Part shown: piece after piece, positions 5,312 to 36,492 of the stretch | Layout: each line of letters starts with the position of its first letter | Numbering within the stretch: the first letter of the stretch is position 1 | From: a virus | IMG/VR virus record: IMGVR_UViG_3300042335_000666 | Span: 1 to 39,874 of that record | DNA: 39,874 nt | Direction: 5' to 3' (one strand) | Notes under the pieces: generated by a model | Seen by the model: the letters and a program-made list of their open reading frames with translations, nothing else | What the model was told of the DNA's origin: nothing | Databases searched by the model: none | Translations under genes and position numbers: made by a program

Positions 5312-5387
5312 GGGCCAATAACTCAATGGTTAGAGTACGTCGCTCATAACGACTTAGTTATAGGTTCGAATCCTGTTTGGCCCACCA
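5312..5387 (+). tRNA. tRNA with CAU anticodon (Met, or Ile after C34 modification)
   Basis: 76 nt fold into a full cloverleaf with encoded CCA: acceptor GGGCCAA/TTGGCCC, D stem ACTC/GAGT, anticodon loop CTCATAA (U33 present, anticodon CAT), T stem ATAGG/CCTGT with TTCGAAT loop. The first anticodon-stem pair is a C/T mismatch. Sequence alone does not settle elongator Met, initiator or Ile2 (lysidine) identity. Confidence 0.9.
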
Positions 5388-5597
5388 GTGCTGTACACGT
5401 GCGGCAACTGAACTGTCAAGGGATCCTTGACAGTTGCAACCTACAAGTTTTGTACGTTGACTGCCTTGTGCTTGGCATGAGCCATGAATCGACATGGCGC
5501 ATACGGTACGGTGCAGTTGTCAAGGAATCCTTGACAACTCGACAGGTACCGAGGATTACTCGGTAACTCAACAGGTTGATAGCGAAAGGAATACGGT
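5388..5597 (+). promoter_or_regulatory. Control region with twin 25-bp dyads and two further hairpins
   Basis: No gene is seen here. Two near-identical dyads, AACTGTCAAGG-GAT-CCTTGACAGTT (5411-5435) and AGTTGTCAAGG-AAT-CCTTGACAACT (5515-5539), are centred 104 bp apart. Between them lies GCCATG-N6-CATGGC (5481-5498), and after the second TACCGAG-N5-CTCGGTA. Each dyad contains TTGACA on both strands but no good -10 follows at normal spacing. I read it as an operator pair for a dimeric regulator, or a structured leader of the operon starting at 5598. Confidence 0.55.
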
Positions 5598-29104: not shown

Positions 29105-31713
29105 CGATGCCACAGGTTGGCCTACAACTCGTTGTACAAAATGCCTCGCAGTATGTTCAGCAACTGAACACTGCTGGAACTGCTAATCAAAATTTTGCCA
29201 ACTCAACTATCAATGCGGCAAATCAGTTTGCAGAAAGTGCAAGTACATTTGGCAAACCAGCAACTGCATTAGAGCAAGTTTGGGTGGGAGCACTCCGAAA
29301 CATTGGCGGTATGATCACTGGGAAACTTGCAGAATTTGGCGCGCAAATCACGTCATTCGTTGCAAGTTCCCCAATGGCATTTGCTGAATTTCAGGATCAA
29401 ATGCAAAATTTTGGTGCGGCCGCTGGATTGACTGACGAGCAAACTAAGCCATATGAAGATTTGATATTGATGCTAGGCAAGGAATTGCCAGTAAGTACTA
29501 CTGAAACGGCCCAGGCCGCAATTGAAATGGTGAAAGGTGGTATTGATCCGGCTATTCTGCAAATTGGCGGTTTGCGCGATGTGCTGAACTACGCAAATGC
29601 GAACATGATGGATTTGGACACATCTGCAAATTTGATAGCCAAAACTGTTGGTACTTTTACTAGTGCAACCGCAACCGCGGAAGAACAGCAACGGTTTATG
29701 GCCGAGGCGATGGACTACACTACAAAGGTTGGCAACGCATCGACGTATACCACCCAAGAGTTGATGTTGGGTATGCTCGAGGCCGGTGGTACGGCTAAAG
29801 CGGTTGGGTTAGAGTATGGTGATTTTGCGGTTACTATGGGTGCACTCAGTCCAGCATTTAGCAGTGCAAACGTTGCCGGTACTAGTTTCAAAAACTTTTT
29901 GTTACGGTTGGCACCAACCAGTAAAGAGGCCTACGATCAAATGGAGAAAATGGGCCTGGTTACTGGTGATGTAACAAAATATATGGAAACGTTGCGCCAA
30001 TTTGGTATTGAACCAGCATCTAATGATATTGGACAACTAACCGATCAACTATACGATTACATGAAAAATACGGCCGGAATGACGGAATCCGAGATTGATA
30101 AAACATTTCGAGAATTAAGCCAATCTGCGTTTTATGCTAATGGTGAATTGAAAAGCATGGCGGAAATATCTCAGGTGCTCCAAGATGCAACCGGTGATCT
30201 TACATCTGAGGAAAAATCATATGCAATGGCCAAAATCTTTGGTAACGAGGCTATGAATGCGGCGGTACGTCTAACTGAACTTGGTGCTGATGGCTATAAC
30301 GAATTTGCAAGTACAGTTGATGGTGCAAATGGCATTACCGAGCAAGCCGCGGCTACTCAGCGCGGATTAGAATTTGAGATGTCGCAAGTGCAAGGAACAA
30401 TGGAAACTCTGCAAATTGTCATTGGTAAAGCGGCATCTGGGCCCATGGAAGAATTGTACAAAATACAAAACTCTATTTTAGGGACGATTCTTGATGTAGC
30501 ATTAGCACTTGGTGGTAATAAATCGGCATACGAAAATTTGAGTGGCCCACTTCAGACAGTTATTGATTATATGAACATTGCCAAGACTGCATATGATTCT
30601 TTATTTAACATTTCATACAATCCAACTGGTGGGTTCTATAGTCTACCACTAGTGGTTCAGAGTATCGTGATCGGATTGCGTGATCTGCAAACTTGGTTTG
30701 CTATCACTACTGAAAACGGCGCGGTATTTACCAGTGCATGGGAGTATTTGGTACAGGTTGGCAACCAAGTACTAGCATACTTCGCATCACTTGAACCCCT
30801 CCTGGCACCACTTTATGATGCATTTGATATCATTGGTAAACAAGTAATCGAGATGCAAACCATCTTTCAGCAGTCATTTGGAAACATTGGCGCGCAAATT
30901 GCTGGAGAACCTACCAATTGGGTTCAAACCATCACCGAAGTATTTCGTGTGATTGTGAATATTATTGCTGGGGCCCTGGTACTGGTATCAACAATCATCA
31001 CCGGCGCGGTGAATCTAATTAGTGGGATTTGGTATGTATTTGGTGATAGCATTATCTTGGTGATAGAAGTGGCAATGGAAACAATTCGTTTTCTTTTTGA
31101 ACAAGCAATGAGAATCATAAGCACCGTTATTGAAGTATTTATTGCATTGATGAACGGTGATTTTGTTGGAGCAATGCGTGCAATTGTGCAGTACATACTA
31201 GATACCTGGGATAATGTACTACGATTTTTTACCGGTATCGGAGAGTCTATTATTAAAGCAATTCGTAATTCATGGGATAAACTGTATACGGATTTTATTA
31301 GTGCATGGCCATTTGCAAAAATTGGCGCGGATCTCATTGCAGGCCTGGTATCAGGATTTGTAGATAACGCGGCTAAAGCTATATCAGAAGTGCTTTCATG
31401 GGGCCGCAAGTTGATCAAAGAGTTAAAAGCGGTATTTGGTATTGAATCACCAAGCAAAGAAATGATGGCAATCGGCCAGGAACTAAGTGCAGGACTCTAT
31501 GCCGGTATTGCATCTGGAATACCAGCAATTGAAAGTTTGATGAGTGGAATAAGCCAAACCATTATGGTTTCTCCTTATGCATCAGCAGGATCTACTACAC
31601 AAAACACATATAATCAAACTACTACGAATCAGTATCATTTGGGAGTTACCACGCGTGCAAGTGCTCCAGATGTGATTAGTTCATTTGCAATTATGAAAGC
31701 GGTTTCAGTATGA
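29101..31713 (+). CDS. Tape measure protein (TP901-like)
   Basis: 870 residues; the start overlaps the chaperone stop. Ala/Gln/Asn-rich helical N-terminus, a TP901-type core (AETAQAAIEMVKGGIDP, LGMLEAGGTAKAVGLEYGDF, GTSFKNFLLRLAP), hydrophobic helices at about 620-690 able to cross a membrane, and the C-terminal PSKEMMAIGQELSAGLYAGI motif. It sets tail length and may form the DNA entry channel. The length would predict a tail near 130 nm at about 0.15 nm per residue (inference). Confidence 0.9.
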   Translation: MTMPQVGLQLVVQNASQYVQQLNTAGTANQNFANSTINAANQFAESASTFGKPATALEQVWVGALRNIGGMITGKLAEFGAQITSFVASSPMAFAEFQDQMQNFGAAAGLTDEQTKPYEDLILMLGKELPVSTTETAQAAIEMVKGGIDPAILQIGGLRDVLNYANANMMDLDTSANLIAKTVGTFTSATATAEEQQRFMAEAMDYTTKVGNASTYTTQELMLGMLEAGGTAKAVGLEYGDFAVTMGALSPAFSSANVAGTSFKNFLLRLAPTSKEAYDQMEKMGLVTGDVTKYMETLRQFGIEPASNDIGQLTDQLYDYMKNTAGMTESEIDKTFRELSQSAFYANGELKSMAEISQVLQDATGDLTSEEKSYAMAKIFGNEAMNAAVRLTELGADGYNEFASTVDGANGITEQAAATQRGLEFEMSQVQGTMETLQIVIGKAASGPMEELYKIQNSILGTILDVALALGGNKSAYENLSGPLQTVIDYMNIAKTAYDSLFNISYNPTGGFYSLPLVVQSIVIGLRDLQTWFAITTENGAVFTSAWEYLVQVGNQVLAYFASLEPLLAPLYDAFDIIGKQVIEMQTIFQQSFGNIGAQIAGEPTNWVQTITEVFRVIVNIIAGALVLVSTIITGAVNLISGIWYVFGDSIILVIEVAMETIRFLFEQAMRIISTVIEVFIALMNGDFVGAMRAIVQYILDTWDNVLRFFTGIGESIIKAIRNSWDKLYTDFISAWPFAKIGADLIAGLVSGFVDNAAKAISEVLSWGRKLIKELKAVFGIESPSKEMMAIGQELSAGLYAGIASGIPAIESLMSGISQTIMVSPYASAGSTTQNTYNQTTTNQYHLGVTTRASAPDVISSFAIMKAVSV

Positions 31714-34433
31714 CTATTCAGCAACTGCCACCATTATCAAATGCTGGTTTATATAATGCATGTGAGGGTTCACTATACTATATTGTTCCATCTGCAAGTG
31801 AGAACCTATGTATCAATCCATCATTTGAGTTTGATACCACAAGTTGGGCTTCCACCGGAACCATATCTCGTGTAGTGAGTGGATATTCTGGATATTATGC
31901 ACTACAAGCAATACTTACCGCAAATCAAACTGTAACTTATACACTTACACGCAATCCTACCGCCGTACAACATGCGGCATCAATATACGTGCTCAATAGT
32001 GGAAGTATCGCAGTAACAATCAATGTTCAGGTTGTAGACACAAGTACAATTGCAAATCGTTCATATACTATACCTGCAAACCAGTGGACGCGAGTGCAAG
32101 TATCATTCATTGGCCGTAATGCGTCTACGGTATTTCGCATTGTCGCATCGTCATCATGTACACTTCGGTTAGATGCGTGTCAAATCGAAATTAGTTCTAA
32201 TGGTGCTACTACGTATTTTGATGGCGATACTTCAGGAACGCAACAATCAACGCAAATTGCAAATCCACAATATGGCTGGTATGGCAATCAACACAGTTCA
32301 ACATCATTTCGCAATCGACAAGCCACTAACGGTGGTATCATTGTTGACTTGCAATCATATGGATTTCAGTTGATTTCAATAAATGGTACAGGGAACCCAA
32401 CATTTGACAATCAAATTGCTACATTTGCTTCCACTGATGGTGGCATATTGCAAGATACCGTTGTTCCAACTCGTGAAATTGCATTTCTTGGTCGTATATC
32501 TGGATCAACAAAAACAGAATTACATCAACGATTGCAATCATTTATGGCATTATTTCAACGCGATCAGGTGTCATATTATCAGACACGTAGTTGGAAGTTT
32601 CAACATAAATCAGGGCGAGAAAATATTGGTCAAGAAATATCATTCTCGGCAGTTCTTGTTTCGGCAGTTTCTACAAACATTACTGATCAATTGTCTGTAG
32701 ATGTTACGATACAATTAAATATGACTGATCCATACTTTTATGGTCATGATGTATCTATACAAATACCACCTGAGTACTTTTATAGAACAGATGCAAACCC
32801 AAGTTCACAACAGGGATTTGATTGGTTGCCAACATTTCAAAACAACAATCAAACTGATAATGCTTCTTCACTTCCGTTTCGGTATATTCTTGGAAATGTT
32901 TACTGTGTATACTGTGCTCCTGATGGTTATGTGTATGTATCATATGAAAACACCACCATTTATGATAAGCAAACTGCAACTACATATAATTTTGCTCATA
33001 TTGCAAAGTTTAGTCCAAGTGAACAAAAATGGTATCCGGTAACCGCAGGAAATATTTTTTCAACCGTTGCGAGTCCACGTATAAATGCTATTGTAATGAC
33101 ACTTAATAGAGAGTATCTTTTGATTGGCAGTAATGCTAGTGGTGGTCCATTATCATTGAATAGTTTAATCGTTGTTACCGTTTCTACGGGAGCATACACA
33201 GTACTGGGAACATTTAATGGGGAAGTTCGATGTATTGTAAATGAACTAATATCAAAACCAACTTTACCTTACGGTAATATAATTTATGTGGGCGGCAGTT
33301 TTACCACTATCAATGGCACGGCCCGAAGTAAAGTGGCATATTATAGTTCAGTATGGGCAAGTTTAACGCCGGATGTCTATAATGGTGATGTTTATTCAAT
33401 GGCATATGATAATTCTGATGATGGTACGGGATTAGATTACTTAGTAATTAGTGGCACATTTACCACTGTTGGAGCAATCACATCACGTAGAATTATTATA
33501 TTTGACTTATATGGAACATTTCCAATAGGAACATATTATGCAACGAGTGTTGGGTTGAGTGATTATGCAGTAAGTATCAAAAGAGTTTCATATAAACGAT
33601 ATTTGATATCGGGAGCATTTAATGCTACACAGGTACAGTCAACAGGTGCATTCATTTCATATAATTCTGGATTGTTGGAGATTACCAATTGGAATCCTCC
33701 TACATCATACGGTACATTTACTGATAGAGGTGTTTTGGTTAGCACAGTCAAAGGCAATCATGGCCCAATGGTCATAAAAAATAATGTTTTGTATTCAGTT
33801 TTTCGAAACTTATCCGGTGCAGATGTTTCTAATAGTTACATTACTACAATCAATATAAATGATTTGTATGCTGGCAATTTTACAAGATTATTGCCTGTGA
33901 ATACTATGTTTATAGATGTTGACGATTCTGGAAACGTGTTTTTTGGACAGGTATATAATGCACGTTATTCTCGATATTCAAAACCAATCAATTTTACTAA
34001 TACCGGTACTGCATCTGCATCATTAGCATTTCGGTTTAAACCGGTAACTTATCCATCGAGTGATAAACTTCAAGAGATTGGAAATTTTACTAATAAACGA
34101 AAAATCACTTTTTTGTCTGGGTATACCACAAAATCAATAAGTGATTCAGTTTTATTTGGGCCAATGCCAATGAATAAAATGCCCGTTGAAATTGATTCAA
34201 GTGATGGTTCATATACAAATATTACTTCTGGTGAGTATACCTATTCATTAGTTAATGTTGTTTTGTCGCCATCATCTGATTTATATACATTAACGGTATT
34301 ACCAGGAGTAAATGTTATTTATGCAATGCTTGATGAACCTGCGAGTAATAGTGTATATACCACTAATAACGAAGTAACATTCAAATATACGCAAACGTAT
34401 CAATCATTGTTTGATGGGATAAATGCAGTATGA
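31710..34433 (+). CDS. Distal tail protein with carbohydrate-binding module and propeller-like domain
   Basis: 907 residues. N-terminal CBM-like beta-sandwich (NLCINPSFEFDTTSW ... LRLDACQIEI, about 30-160). Then a siphovirus tail-component part (TFDNQIATFASTDGG, RKSGRE-like turn, LNMTDPYFYG, about 210-350). From about 370 to 760 come repeated strands with IYVGGSFTTINGTARSKVAYY and LVISGTFTTVGAITSRRIIIF, a Kelch/DUF-like propeller. The end returns to a tail fold. A host-recognition role is likely. The gene is visibly AT-richer than the head genes. Overlaps both neighbours. Confidence 0.65.
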   Translation: MTIQQLPPLSNAGLYNACEGSLYYIVPSASENLCINPSFEFDTTSWASTGTISRVVSGYSGYYALQAILTANQTVTYTLTRNPTAVQHAASIYVLNSGSIAVTINVQVVDTSTIANRSYTIPANQWTRVQVSFIGRNASTVFRIVASSSCTLRLDACQIEISSNGATTYFDGDTSGTQQSTQIANPQYGWYGNQHSSTSFRNRQATNGGIIVDLQSYGFQLISINGTGNPTFDNQIATFASTDGGILQDTVVPTREIAFLGRISGSTKTELHQRLQSFMALFQRDQVSYYQTRSWKFQHKSGRENIGQEISFSAVLVSAVSTNITDQLSVDVTIQLNMTDPYFYGHDVSIQIPPEYFYRTDANPSSQQGFDWLPTFQNNNQTDNASSLPFRYILGNVYCVYCAPDGYVYVSYENTTIYDKQTATTYNFAHIAKFSPSEQKWYPVTAGNIFSTVASPRINAIVMTLNREYLLIGSNASGGPLSLNSLIVVTVSTGAYTVLGTFNGEVRCIVNELISKPTLPYGNIIYVGGSFTTINGTARSKVAYYSSVWASLTPDVYNGDVYSMAYDNSDDGTGLDYLVISGTFTTVGAITSRRIIIFDLYGTFPIGTYYATSVGLSDYAVSIKRVSYKRYLISGAFNATQVQSTGAFISYNSGLLEITNWNPPTSYGTFTDRGVLVSTVKGNHGPMVIKNNVLYSVFRNLSGADVSNSYITTININDLYAGNFTRLLPVNTMFIDVDDSGNVFFGQVYNARYSRYSKPINFTNTGTASASLAFRFKPVTYPSSDKLQEIGNFTNKRKITFLSGYTTKSISDSVLFGPMPMNKMPVEIDSSDGSYTNITSGEYTYSLVNVVLSPSSDLYTLTVLPGVNVIYAMLDEPASNSVYTTNNEVTFKYTQTYQSLFDGINAV

Positions 34434-35521
34434 TTCAATTTCAAGTTTATATTACATCAATGGATGGCTCACAAGTTGTTTTTATACGTGATTATATACG
34501 TTTAGAGTATGTATTGCGTGGCGATTCTACTGCTGGGGCTTTTGTTATGGAAGTTGATCAATCATCATACATTTCATTATTCAACCCAAATAATGTTGAC
34601 TATCGCGTGCAAATATATCGCAAGGTTAATGATTTGCCATTTTTATTAGAGGGCAGAACAGAGTTTTTAATCAATCGTTGGGATATAACGGACACAACAA
34701 TTATTGTTACCGGAGAAGATTTGCAATCCATATTAGGTAGACGTGTGAACGCATATCCTGTTGGAAATAGTGCGGCAACATTTACTAATGCTTTTGCTGG
34801 AAACATTATGAAAGCACTTGTACGTAATAATTTTATTACCGCACTTGCTGGTCGTGATACTGGAAGTACAGGATTAAATATATCATCATATTTATCTGTT
34901 GATGCTAATACATCAGATGGATTGCAAATGAGCATTTCGTGTAGTCGAGATAATATATATGATGTGATTCAAAAAATTGCGTCTACTTCTCAGGATTATG
35001 GATCATGGATTTGTGGAAGAATCATTAGTGATGGGTATAAATGGCAATTTTTTACTTTTTCTAATCAATTTGGAAGTAATAATGTAAACACTGTTTTTTC
35101 ACGTCAATCTAAAAATATTGAAAATATTCGATTGGAATATGATAGAACTGAGGAATACACCGCAATATATACCGGTGGTCAGGGTACAGATATTGATCGT
35201 ATCATTGGTTCTGCAACAAGTAGTAATATTGGATTATCTCCTATTTATCGACGTGAATATTTTTATAGTAATCCACAAATTGCCACACAAGATGAAGCAG
35301 ATTATTATGCAAGTGCACTTACTCGATTGTATCGCGGCCAACTACGATTTCGTGCAGAACTGATTAATAGTCAATTTTTTGTTAGGGGTGTTGATTATAA
35401 TATTGGAGATATTATCACCGTATCATTTTTAGATTTGTTATATACATGCCGCATTGATATTGTTTCAGTCAAAATTAATAATTCACAAGTAAGTGAAGTT
35501 GTGGAGTTGAAGTTAATATGA
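34430..35521 (+). CDS. Baseplate hub/tail protein (Gp37-like)
   Basis: 363 residues with the features of siphovirus Gp37-like/tail-hub proteins: VLRGDSTAGAFVMEVDQ, GRTEFLINRWDITDTTIIVTGEDLQSILGRR, NIENIRLEYDRTEEYTAIYTGGQG and a C-terminal YNIGDIITVSFLDLLYTCRI. It would form the tail-tip hub through which the tape measure and DNA pass. AT-rich like its upstream neighbour. Overlaps both neighbours by ATGA-type junctions. Confidence 0.7.
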   Translation: MIQFQVYITSMDGSQVVFIRDYIRLEYVLRGDSTAGAFVMEVDQSSYISLFNPNNVDYRVQIYRKVNDLPFLLEGRTEFLINRWDITDTTIIVTGEDLQSILGRRVNAYPVGNSAATFTNAFAGNIMKALVRNNFITALAGRDTGSTGLNISSYLSVDANTSDGLQMSISCSRDNIYDVIQKIASTSQDYGSWICGRIISDGYKWQFFTFSNQFGSNNVNTVFSRQSKNIENIRLEYDRTEEYTAIYTGGQGTDIDRIIGSATSSNIGLSPIYRREYFYSNPQIATQDEADYYASALTRLYRGQLRFRAELINSQFFVRGVDYNIGDIITVSFLDLLYTCRIDIVSVKINNSQVSEVVELKLI

Positions 35522-35982
35522 GTGATATCACACGCTTAGTATTGCAAACCCAAACAGATCTACGACAACAAAGCAACGTTGAAGTTGACGCTACTAAGTA
35601 CTTAACATTGACCAGAACAACCACGCAAAGTCTTGTTACCACTGGAACTACACTTGTGTGGCAAAGTGCGGCACGAAATAGGGGATTTACATGGTCTGGA
35701 TCTGCGATTACAATACCAGTATCAGGATACTACCATATTGATATAACACTAGTCATCGGATCAAATACGAGTTTTTCTATTGATATGCTCGTTAACACGC
35801 TTGCGGTTGCTCGACTGGTAAATAGCGGTGGGGGAAACGCGTTTCGGTTTGAGGGTATGCGATACTTTACACAAGGGAATACACTCGAGTTTAGAGCACT
35901 TGTTGGAGCTAATCGCACATTAGCCGTAAACGCGTATGGTGCCGTAGATGAAAGTCCGTTTTTGCATATCGTCAAAATATAA
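35518..35982 (+). CDS. Tail tip protein with C1q/TNF-like domain, probable receptor binding
   Basis: 154 residues. A short N-terminal part, then a jelly-roll pattern: WSGSAITIPVSGYYHIDITLVIGSN and EFRALVGANRTLAVNAYG, as in trimeric C1q-like tips of phage fibres. As the last and smallest tail gene it is a good candidate for the receptor-binding tip. The downstream promoter at 35961 lies within its end. Confidence 0.65.
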   Translation: MSDITRLVLQTQTDLRQQSNVEVDATKYLTLTRTTTQSLVTTGTTLVWQSAARNRGFTWSGSAITIPVSGYYHIDITLVIGSNTSFSIDMLVNTLAVARLVNSGGGNAFRFEGMRYFTQGNTLEFRALVGANRTLAVNAYGAVDESPFLHIVKI

Positions 35983-35989
35983 GTATAAT
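35961..35989 (+). promoter_or_regulatory. Promoter of the tRNA-like/ncRNA cluster
   Basis: TTTGCA (35961-35966), 17 bases, then a perfect TATAAT (35984-35989). The predicted start at about 35996-35999 coincides with the first tRNA-like base. It lies inside the end of the tail tip gene. Confidence 0.7.
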
Positions 35990-35998
35990 AGATGAAAT

Positions 35999-36070
35999 GG
36001 AGCAATAGTTTAGTGGCAGAACAGTATACAGGGGTATACAGGCACGGGTTCGATCCCCGTTTCTCCGCCA
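35999..36070 (+). tRNA. tRNA-like element 1 (degenerate, with CCA)
   Basis: 72 nt with D arm GTTT-AGTGGCA-GAAC, T arm ACGGG-TTCGATC-CCCGT and encoded CCA, but the acceptor has only six 3' bases (TTCTCC) against GGAGCAA with a C/T mismatch, and the anticodon arm GTATA-CAGGGG-TATAC has a 6-base loop, or 4 bases if C-G pairs. No U33-anticodon arrangement can be read. It is tRNA-shaped but unlikely to decode normally. Confidence 0.55.
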
Positions 36071-36082
36071 GTTGAATTGTAT

Positions 36083-36158
36083 GGAACTGTAGTTCAGTAG
36101 GTAGATCAGTATACCAATGGTATGCAGTGCATGGGTTCGAATCCCATCAGTTCCGCCA
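36083..36158 (+). tRNA. tRNA-like element 2 (nominal anticodon AAT, lacks U33)
   Basis: 76 nt cloverleaf with a perfect acceptor GGAACTG/CAGTTCC, T arm ATGGG-TTCGAAT-CCCAT and CCA. The anticodon loop CCAATGG has C at position 33, where U is nearly universal, and can close further to a 7-bp stem with AAT loop. The nominal anticodon AAU is not used by bacterial tRNA-Ile. Probably not an ordinary tRNA. Confidence 0.65.
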
Positions 36159-36159
36159 G

Positions 36160-36345
36160 TGGGATAAGTGTGGATGTTCCCATTACGGGTTCAGGGTTTG
36201 TAGGCCCTGTTTACCTGGTTCACCGGAGAGGGTTCCGCCAAACCAGGCCCACGAGTGGGAAACAGGAAAGAATGCCAGACCACGGGGAGTACCCGCCCCC
36301 AAACGGTTTACTGTAGGCCGCCACACAGCAAACCGCATCACAGTG
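36160..36345 (+). ncRNA. Structured non-coding RNA candidate
   Basis: The stretch has no supported gene. CCTGTTT (36206-36212) pairs with AAACAGG (36260-36266); inside it CCTGGTT/AACCAGG (36214-36220/36241-36247, capped by CGGA/TCCG) and CCCAC/GTGGG (36248-36252/36255-36259) form a nearly gap-free three-way junction. CAGGG/CCCTG (36192-36196/36205-36209) would compete with the outer stem. A later stem is CGGTTT-A-CTGT/ACAG-C-AAACCG. It follows the tRNA-like elements from the same promoter. No known RNA class recognised. Confidence 0.6.
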
Positions 36346-36360
36346 GTATGCAATGCAGGA

Positions 36361-36403
36361 ACAAACGGTGATTGTGGTATATCCACGATCGCCGTTTGTT
36401 TTG
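36361..36403 (+). terminator. Rho-independent terminator of the ncRNA cluster
   Basis: A 17-bp stem (36361-36377 with 36383-36399, two G-T pairs, loop TATAT) is followed by TTTTG. It is the strongest terminator in the window and closes the transcript begun at about 35999. Confidence 0.75.
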
Positions 36404-36437
36404 TGCTATACTAGCAGTGGACATCTGTGCCAGCACT

Positions 36438-36477
36438 CACACGAAACCGCGCGCCATCTGGTGTGCGGTTTCGTGTG
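36438..36477. terminator. Terminator hairpin between converging operons
   Basis: CACACGAAACCGC (36438-36450) pairs with GCGGTTTCGTGTG (36465-36477), 13 bp, loop of 14. It lies 16 bases beyond the end of the leftward methyltransferase gene, so it can end that operon as well as backstop the rightward one; no U run on either strand. Confidence 0.6.
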
Positions 36478-36492
36478 TGTTCATCACGTCAA

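Follow-up and report, generated by a model that had tools for sequence, protein, structure and literature searches.

Two RNAs of bacteriophage T4, RNAC and RNAD, lie within the tRNA cluster of that phage. They are non-coding and of unknown function (PMC9697503). GOLLD, an RNA of phages or prophages, often adjoins tRNAs, and the phage RNA ROOL is often close to tRNA islands (PMC12286853). In Escherichia coli, 3′ETS-leuZ occupies the stretch from the last tRNA to a Rho-independent terminator and is excised by RNase E (PMC6191717).

Here we analyse a trailer that lies between the second of two tRNA-like genes and a terminator hairpin in the genome of an uncultured phage. Like GOLLD it adjoins tRNA-like genes in a phage, but it is only ~200 nt long, whereas many GOLLD members exceed 800 nt and form nanocages; ROOL is likewise much larger and has multiple pseudoknots. 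A preliminary description had judged the region to be unlike both, and a search of Rfam, proposed there as a check, agrees: only tRNA families stood above chance, at the gathering score and at E ≤ 10, and GOLLD is also excluded by length. With T4 RNAC and RNAD the trailer shares a position beside tRNAs; it differs in that the phage collection yielded no sequence match to it, and the RNA is predicted here from sequence alone. The 3′ETS of tRNA operons, compared by position, likewise lies between a last tRNA and a terminator, but 3′ETS-leuZ pairs with the small RNA RyhB, and the trailer is long by comparison.

A tRNA-like pair at the end of the tail genes

The window (the whole stretch of virus DNA that was analysed, 39,874 bases) carries, on its plus strand, genes for the terminase, the tape measure and a Gp37-like tail protein, followed by the tRNA-like pair and the trailer (Table 1). 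Beyond the trailer stand the terminator hairpin and a second long inverted repeat, and past these a Dam-type methyltransferase, a DnaC-like loader and replication protein O are encoded leftward. The second repeat is likely to be the end of this leftward methyltransferase/replication unit; a 16-nt stretch of the trailer (36322–36337) is 88% complementary to one of its arms (36464–36479).

Table 1 Features of the tRNA-like genes, the trailer and their surroundings
Feature	Coordinates	Strand	Description
Promoter-like site	35961–35989	+	TTTGCA, 17 nt, TATAAT; 10 of 12 consensus bases
tRNA-like gene 1	35998–36069	+	Rfam tRNA, 39.4 bits; 3′-terminal CCA encoded
tRNA-like gene 2	36083–36158	+	Rfam tRNA, 50.8 bits; ARAGORN tRNA-Ile(aat); CCA encoded
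Non-coding trailer	36159–36359	+	Contains the junction; no coding signal, no homologue
Competing fold	36177–36261	+	TTCCCATT (36177–36184) with AGTGGGAA (36254–36261), enclosing the CAGGG hairpin and the long arm
Three-way-junction core	36206–36266	+	Three stems; long arm bears a further 5-bp tip
Segment similar to tRNA-like gene 2 over its 5′ two thirds	36309–36357	+	Possible decayed tRNA; weak alignment
Terminator hairpin	36360–36400	+	AACAAACGGTGATTGTGG-TATAT-CCACGATCGCCGTTTGTT, then TTGT; 18-nt arms, 89% complementary
Second long inverted repeat	36435–36480		Between convergent units; likely end of the leftward unit

Among 994 windows of 120 nt scanned for predicted stability, those adjoining the terminator hairpin are among the most stable, and neighbouring terminator hairpins rank first. 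This hairpin was missed by a strict terminator pattern search, probably on account of its T tract, which sits in the stem. At the other end of the unit, the promoter-like site stops ~9 nt upstream of tRNA-like gene 1. Because sites of such quality are about as frequent in shuffled as in real sequence, its position is the main argument for it. In the simplest model, a promoter or read-through drives a single short unit in which the two tRNA-like genes are followed by the trailer and a terminator. The G+C content of the trailer is 0.54–0.60 per 120-nt window, against 0.46 for the genome. Across the tail genes (31000–36000) it falls to 0.34–0.40 and climbs again at the tRNA unit, which suggests a recombined tail module.

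Neither tRNA-like gene has the 7-nt anticodon loop with U33 of a functional elongator tRNA. The loop of gene 1 (CAGGGG) has 6 nt and lacks U33, its acceptor stem has one mismatch, and the arm could alternatively form a 6-bp GTATAC/GTATAC stem with an AGGG loop; ARAGORN was unable to assign an amino acid to this gene. In gene 2 the loop is CCAATGG, with C rather than U at position 33, and could close into an AAT triloop. The two genes are about three quarters identical and form a tandem duplication (alignment score 71, reached by 0 of 2,000 shuffles). They look incapable of normal decoding, and this abnormal pair, with encoded CCA and no U33, is odder than the junction in the trailer.

The region was previously described as one that no gene explains, and its open reading frames are consistent with this. 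None has a significant Pfam or PHROG family or a tblastn match, and the two longest forward frames have codon scores of −0.14 and −0.17, below the 0.06–0.26 (5–95%) of true-frame stretches. The trailer is non-coding.

A compact junction and a competing fold

Three stems meet in the trailer. They had been given as 7, 7 and 5 bp, and the two 7-bp stems are present: an outer stem that pairs CCTGTTT (36206–36212) with AAACAGG (36260–36266), and a long arm that pairs CCTGGTT (36214–36220) with AACCAGG (36241–36247). The third is realistically 4 bp (CCCA, 36248–36251, with TGGG, 36256–36259, around a CGAG loop), because a fifth pair, C36252–G36255, would leave a loop of two bases. The short arm abuts the outer strand, and A36213 is the sole unpaired base at the junction, as expected from the earlier claim that the stems abut with at most one.

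We counted junctions with stems of 7, 7 and 4 Watson–Crick pairs, allowing no more than one unpaired base at each joint and a span of up to 80. One occurs in the window and none in 120 dinucleotide shuffles of the whole window, a comparison that is post hoc in that the motif was picked after being seen. The same holds when the span is extended to 200, at which the window has three junctions whereas its shuffles average 0.3, and among 20,000 shuffled versions of the 186-nt region 4 contain a junction of any span up to 200. Taken by itself, the 61-nt core has a clean, well-defined fold (z = −2.42; 3 of 300 shuffles as stable). The pairing potential is genuine and, on this local scale, striking.

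The larger region does not stand out in this way. Its predicted fold (36160–36345) has an energy of −63.8 kcal/mol and a z score of −0.69, is matched or exceeded in stability by 45 of 200 shuffles, and ranking by z places the region's 120-nt windows at about 196–345 of 994, so that the view of the region as unusually structured is not borne out. Nor does the junction hold as the main structure of the RNA. In the predicted ensemble it is a minor form in context, with a probability of ~0.3–0.4 against ~0.6–0.7 for the competing fold; in an RNA that runs from the tRNA to the terminator the values are ~0.36 and ~0.62. Adding 29 nt upstream of the junction core is enough to make the competing fold the best one, and its predicted share is ~0.9 in RNAs that end at 36275–36300.

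The preliminary description proposed that a hairpin of CAGGG and CCCTG could switch the outer stem. The hairpin is present (36192–36196 with 36205–36209), and the two folds, when forced, have energies of −63.8 and −63.4 kcal/mol, 0.4 kcal/mol apart, a closeness that a switch would require. However, the ensemble diversity is unexceptional, being higher in 82 of 300 shuffles, so this near-degeneracy is not evidence for a switch. A two-state RNA is possible from the folding models; that either fold has been selected, or that there is a dedicated function or switch, is not supported by them.

Homologue searches and related phages

The suggestion of a conserved RNA found no backing, in that no homologue appeared in phage or plasmid records or in pattern searches of viral contigs and species genomes. 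Searched with blastn at E ≤ 10 against 50,697 phage records, the trailer itself had no match, and the plasmid and phage matches obtained were just to the tRNA T arm or short chance matches. A 15-base pattern (CCTGTTTACCTGGTT) occurs in 53 stretches of viral contigs, the best of which match the junction model at 10–14 bits. Among these, the stretch in L093 falls inside a coding frame that is HNH-like by eye, and those in L088 and L098, where the 15-mer lies ~245 nt downstream of tRNAs, fall inside a small ORF that by eye resembles a lambdoid holin; we rejected all three as homologues. An 18-base pattern gave 14 stretches in species genomes, about the chance expectation and with no homologue among them, a pattern search for tRNA-like gene 1 had no match, and a covariance model of the junction, applied to 68 sources and 46 records, returned no homologue. 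Because searches with a single sequence see only fairly close homologues, this absence is weak evidence. Two likenesses to known RNAs were also discarded: a weak Rfam match to permuted tmRNA (E = 0.74) rests on the T arm of the tRNA, and a resemblance to domain IV of the SRP RNA, seen by eye, has no Rfam support. Within the phage's own genes, the longest exact antisense complementarity is 12 nt, which is at chance level.

Terminase searches identified seven related records (58–73% identity) and no relatives within cellular genomes. Two of the seven, G005 (39,270 bases, terminase 71% identical) and G006 (38,925 bases, 67%), cover the junction between tail and replication genes and keep the last tail genes; a scan by alignment of the tail-end protein again found these two only. 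At that junction ARAGORN detects no tRNAs in either genome, and neither the DNA query nor the junction model finds a match there; unrelated ORFs or a plain terminator occupy the site. Because both relatives that cover the site lack the tRNAs and the RNA, the tRNA-like/trailer cassette is, to judge from these genomes, accessory.

Explanations for the trailer

The region is probably a non-coding trailer at the 3′ end of a small tRNA unit and may be released as an orphan phage small RNA. The unit would stand at the end of the late (tail) operon of the phage, and transcription would either start at the unit's promoter-like site or enter by read-through out of the tail genes. The transcript would cross both copies of the tRNA-like tandem duplication, then the trailer and the strong terminator, and cleavage after the encoded CCA of gene 2 would yield an RNA of ~200–245 nt, to be degraded as a spacer or to persist as an orphan small RNA. 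The released RNA could adopt the compact junction, although prediction favours the second fold. Transcription, processing and any stability of the trailer RNA are what we infer from this model. Should it hold, we think a passive trailer fairly probable, and a functional small RNA would be a serious but lesser prospect. Consistent with a trailer are its place after a tRNA-like gene that ends in CCA and before a hairpin with 18-nt arms, the TATAAT promoter-like site upstream, its non-coding character, ordinary overall stability and nearly equal folds, the lack of homologues in the searches above and the cassette-free relatives. Against it count the core, which surpasses 297 of 300 shuffles in stability, and the compact 7/7/4 junction, rare by chance, because a passive trailer would not require them; the G+C content above that of the genome and a promoter-like site no commoner than in shuffles also fit it less well. 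A passive trailer would account for the data as well as the hypothesis of a functional three-way-junction RNA does.

The core and junction are also points in favour of a dedicated structured phage RNA, in which the junction is the working form and the CAGGG/CCCTG hairpin a conformational switch for the outer stem. The compact junction is unique in the window, the isolated core is stable with low ensemble diversity, and the folds are near-isoenergetic, with the upstream one predicted at ~0.9 up to ~36300 and at ~0.6–0.7 in the full RNA. We nevertheless regard this as unlikely, given that the region as a whole has ordinary stability, the junction is a minor form in context, the diversity of the ensemble lies inside the shuffle range, and neither a homologue, in the searches above, nor a ligand, target or conserved loop was identified. 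Further downstream, a third tRNA unit that has decayed or been rearranged, the last copy having lost its T arm and taken up other sequence, may contribute at 36309–36357. Genes 1 and 2 are already tandem duplicates, their 3′ flanks repeat TCCGCCAGT(T/G)GRAT, and CAGTGGTATGCAATGCA (36341–36357) has 15 of the 17 bases of CAATGGTATGCAGTGCA in gene 2, with an alignment that runs colinearly from 36309. The extended alignment is weak, however (168 of 2,000 shuffles as good), the stretch has neither a T arm nor an Rfam tRNA match, and 36170–36300 would be left unexplained, all of which make this a doubtful account of the region, and a less likely one than a dedicated RNA. Least credible is the remnant of a small protein gene, such as an HNH-type ORF. 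A 95-codon open frame (36127–36411) does span the region, and CTGTTTACCTGG is common to coding frames elsewhere (as LFTW in the L093 gene, and in the small ORF of L088), but the frame crosses the tRNA and the terminator, its codon score is like that of wrong frames, the LFTW frame stops at 36201–36203, and the family and tblastn searches were negative. We also consider it very unlikely, if less so than a protein remnant, that an orphan RNA with a bistable junction arises from two non-decoding tRNA-like genes and that the whole cassette works as a device that mimics tRNA, such as a decoy for host enzymes that process or cleave tRNA.

If the RNA of the trailer is real and stable, it would join the small set of phage RNAs of unknown role that adjoin tRNAs (T4 RNAC and RNAD, GOLLD and ROOL), and its carrier would be a phage of 40 kb, not a large one. 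The case also illustrates how far structure can be read from a single sequence: the junction is striking, yet it lies in a region of ordinary stability that has no known relatives.

Structured DNA elsewhere in the genome

A tRNA-Met gene (5312–5387) is also trailed by ~200 nt of apparently non-coding DNA (5388–5597), to which the trailer has no likeness. This DNA has two strong hairpins, built on palindromes that are nearly identical, GTCAAGG(G/A)ATCCTTGAC, a count that 0 of 100 shuffles reach. In the relative G005, TCAAGGATTCCTTGA and a CTGCCGAGGATTCCTCGGCAG palindrome lie between genes, and the palindromes of the two phages are possibly a shared repeat or operator family. The apparently coding stretch 1041–1200 has a very stable predicted RNA fold with a long stem around GACGGGTTCCGCGTG/CATGCGGAGCCCGTC, and the 120-nt window at 1081 reaches −56.5 kcal/mol (z = −5.86).
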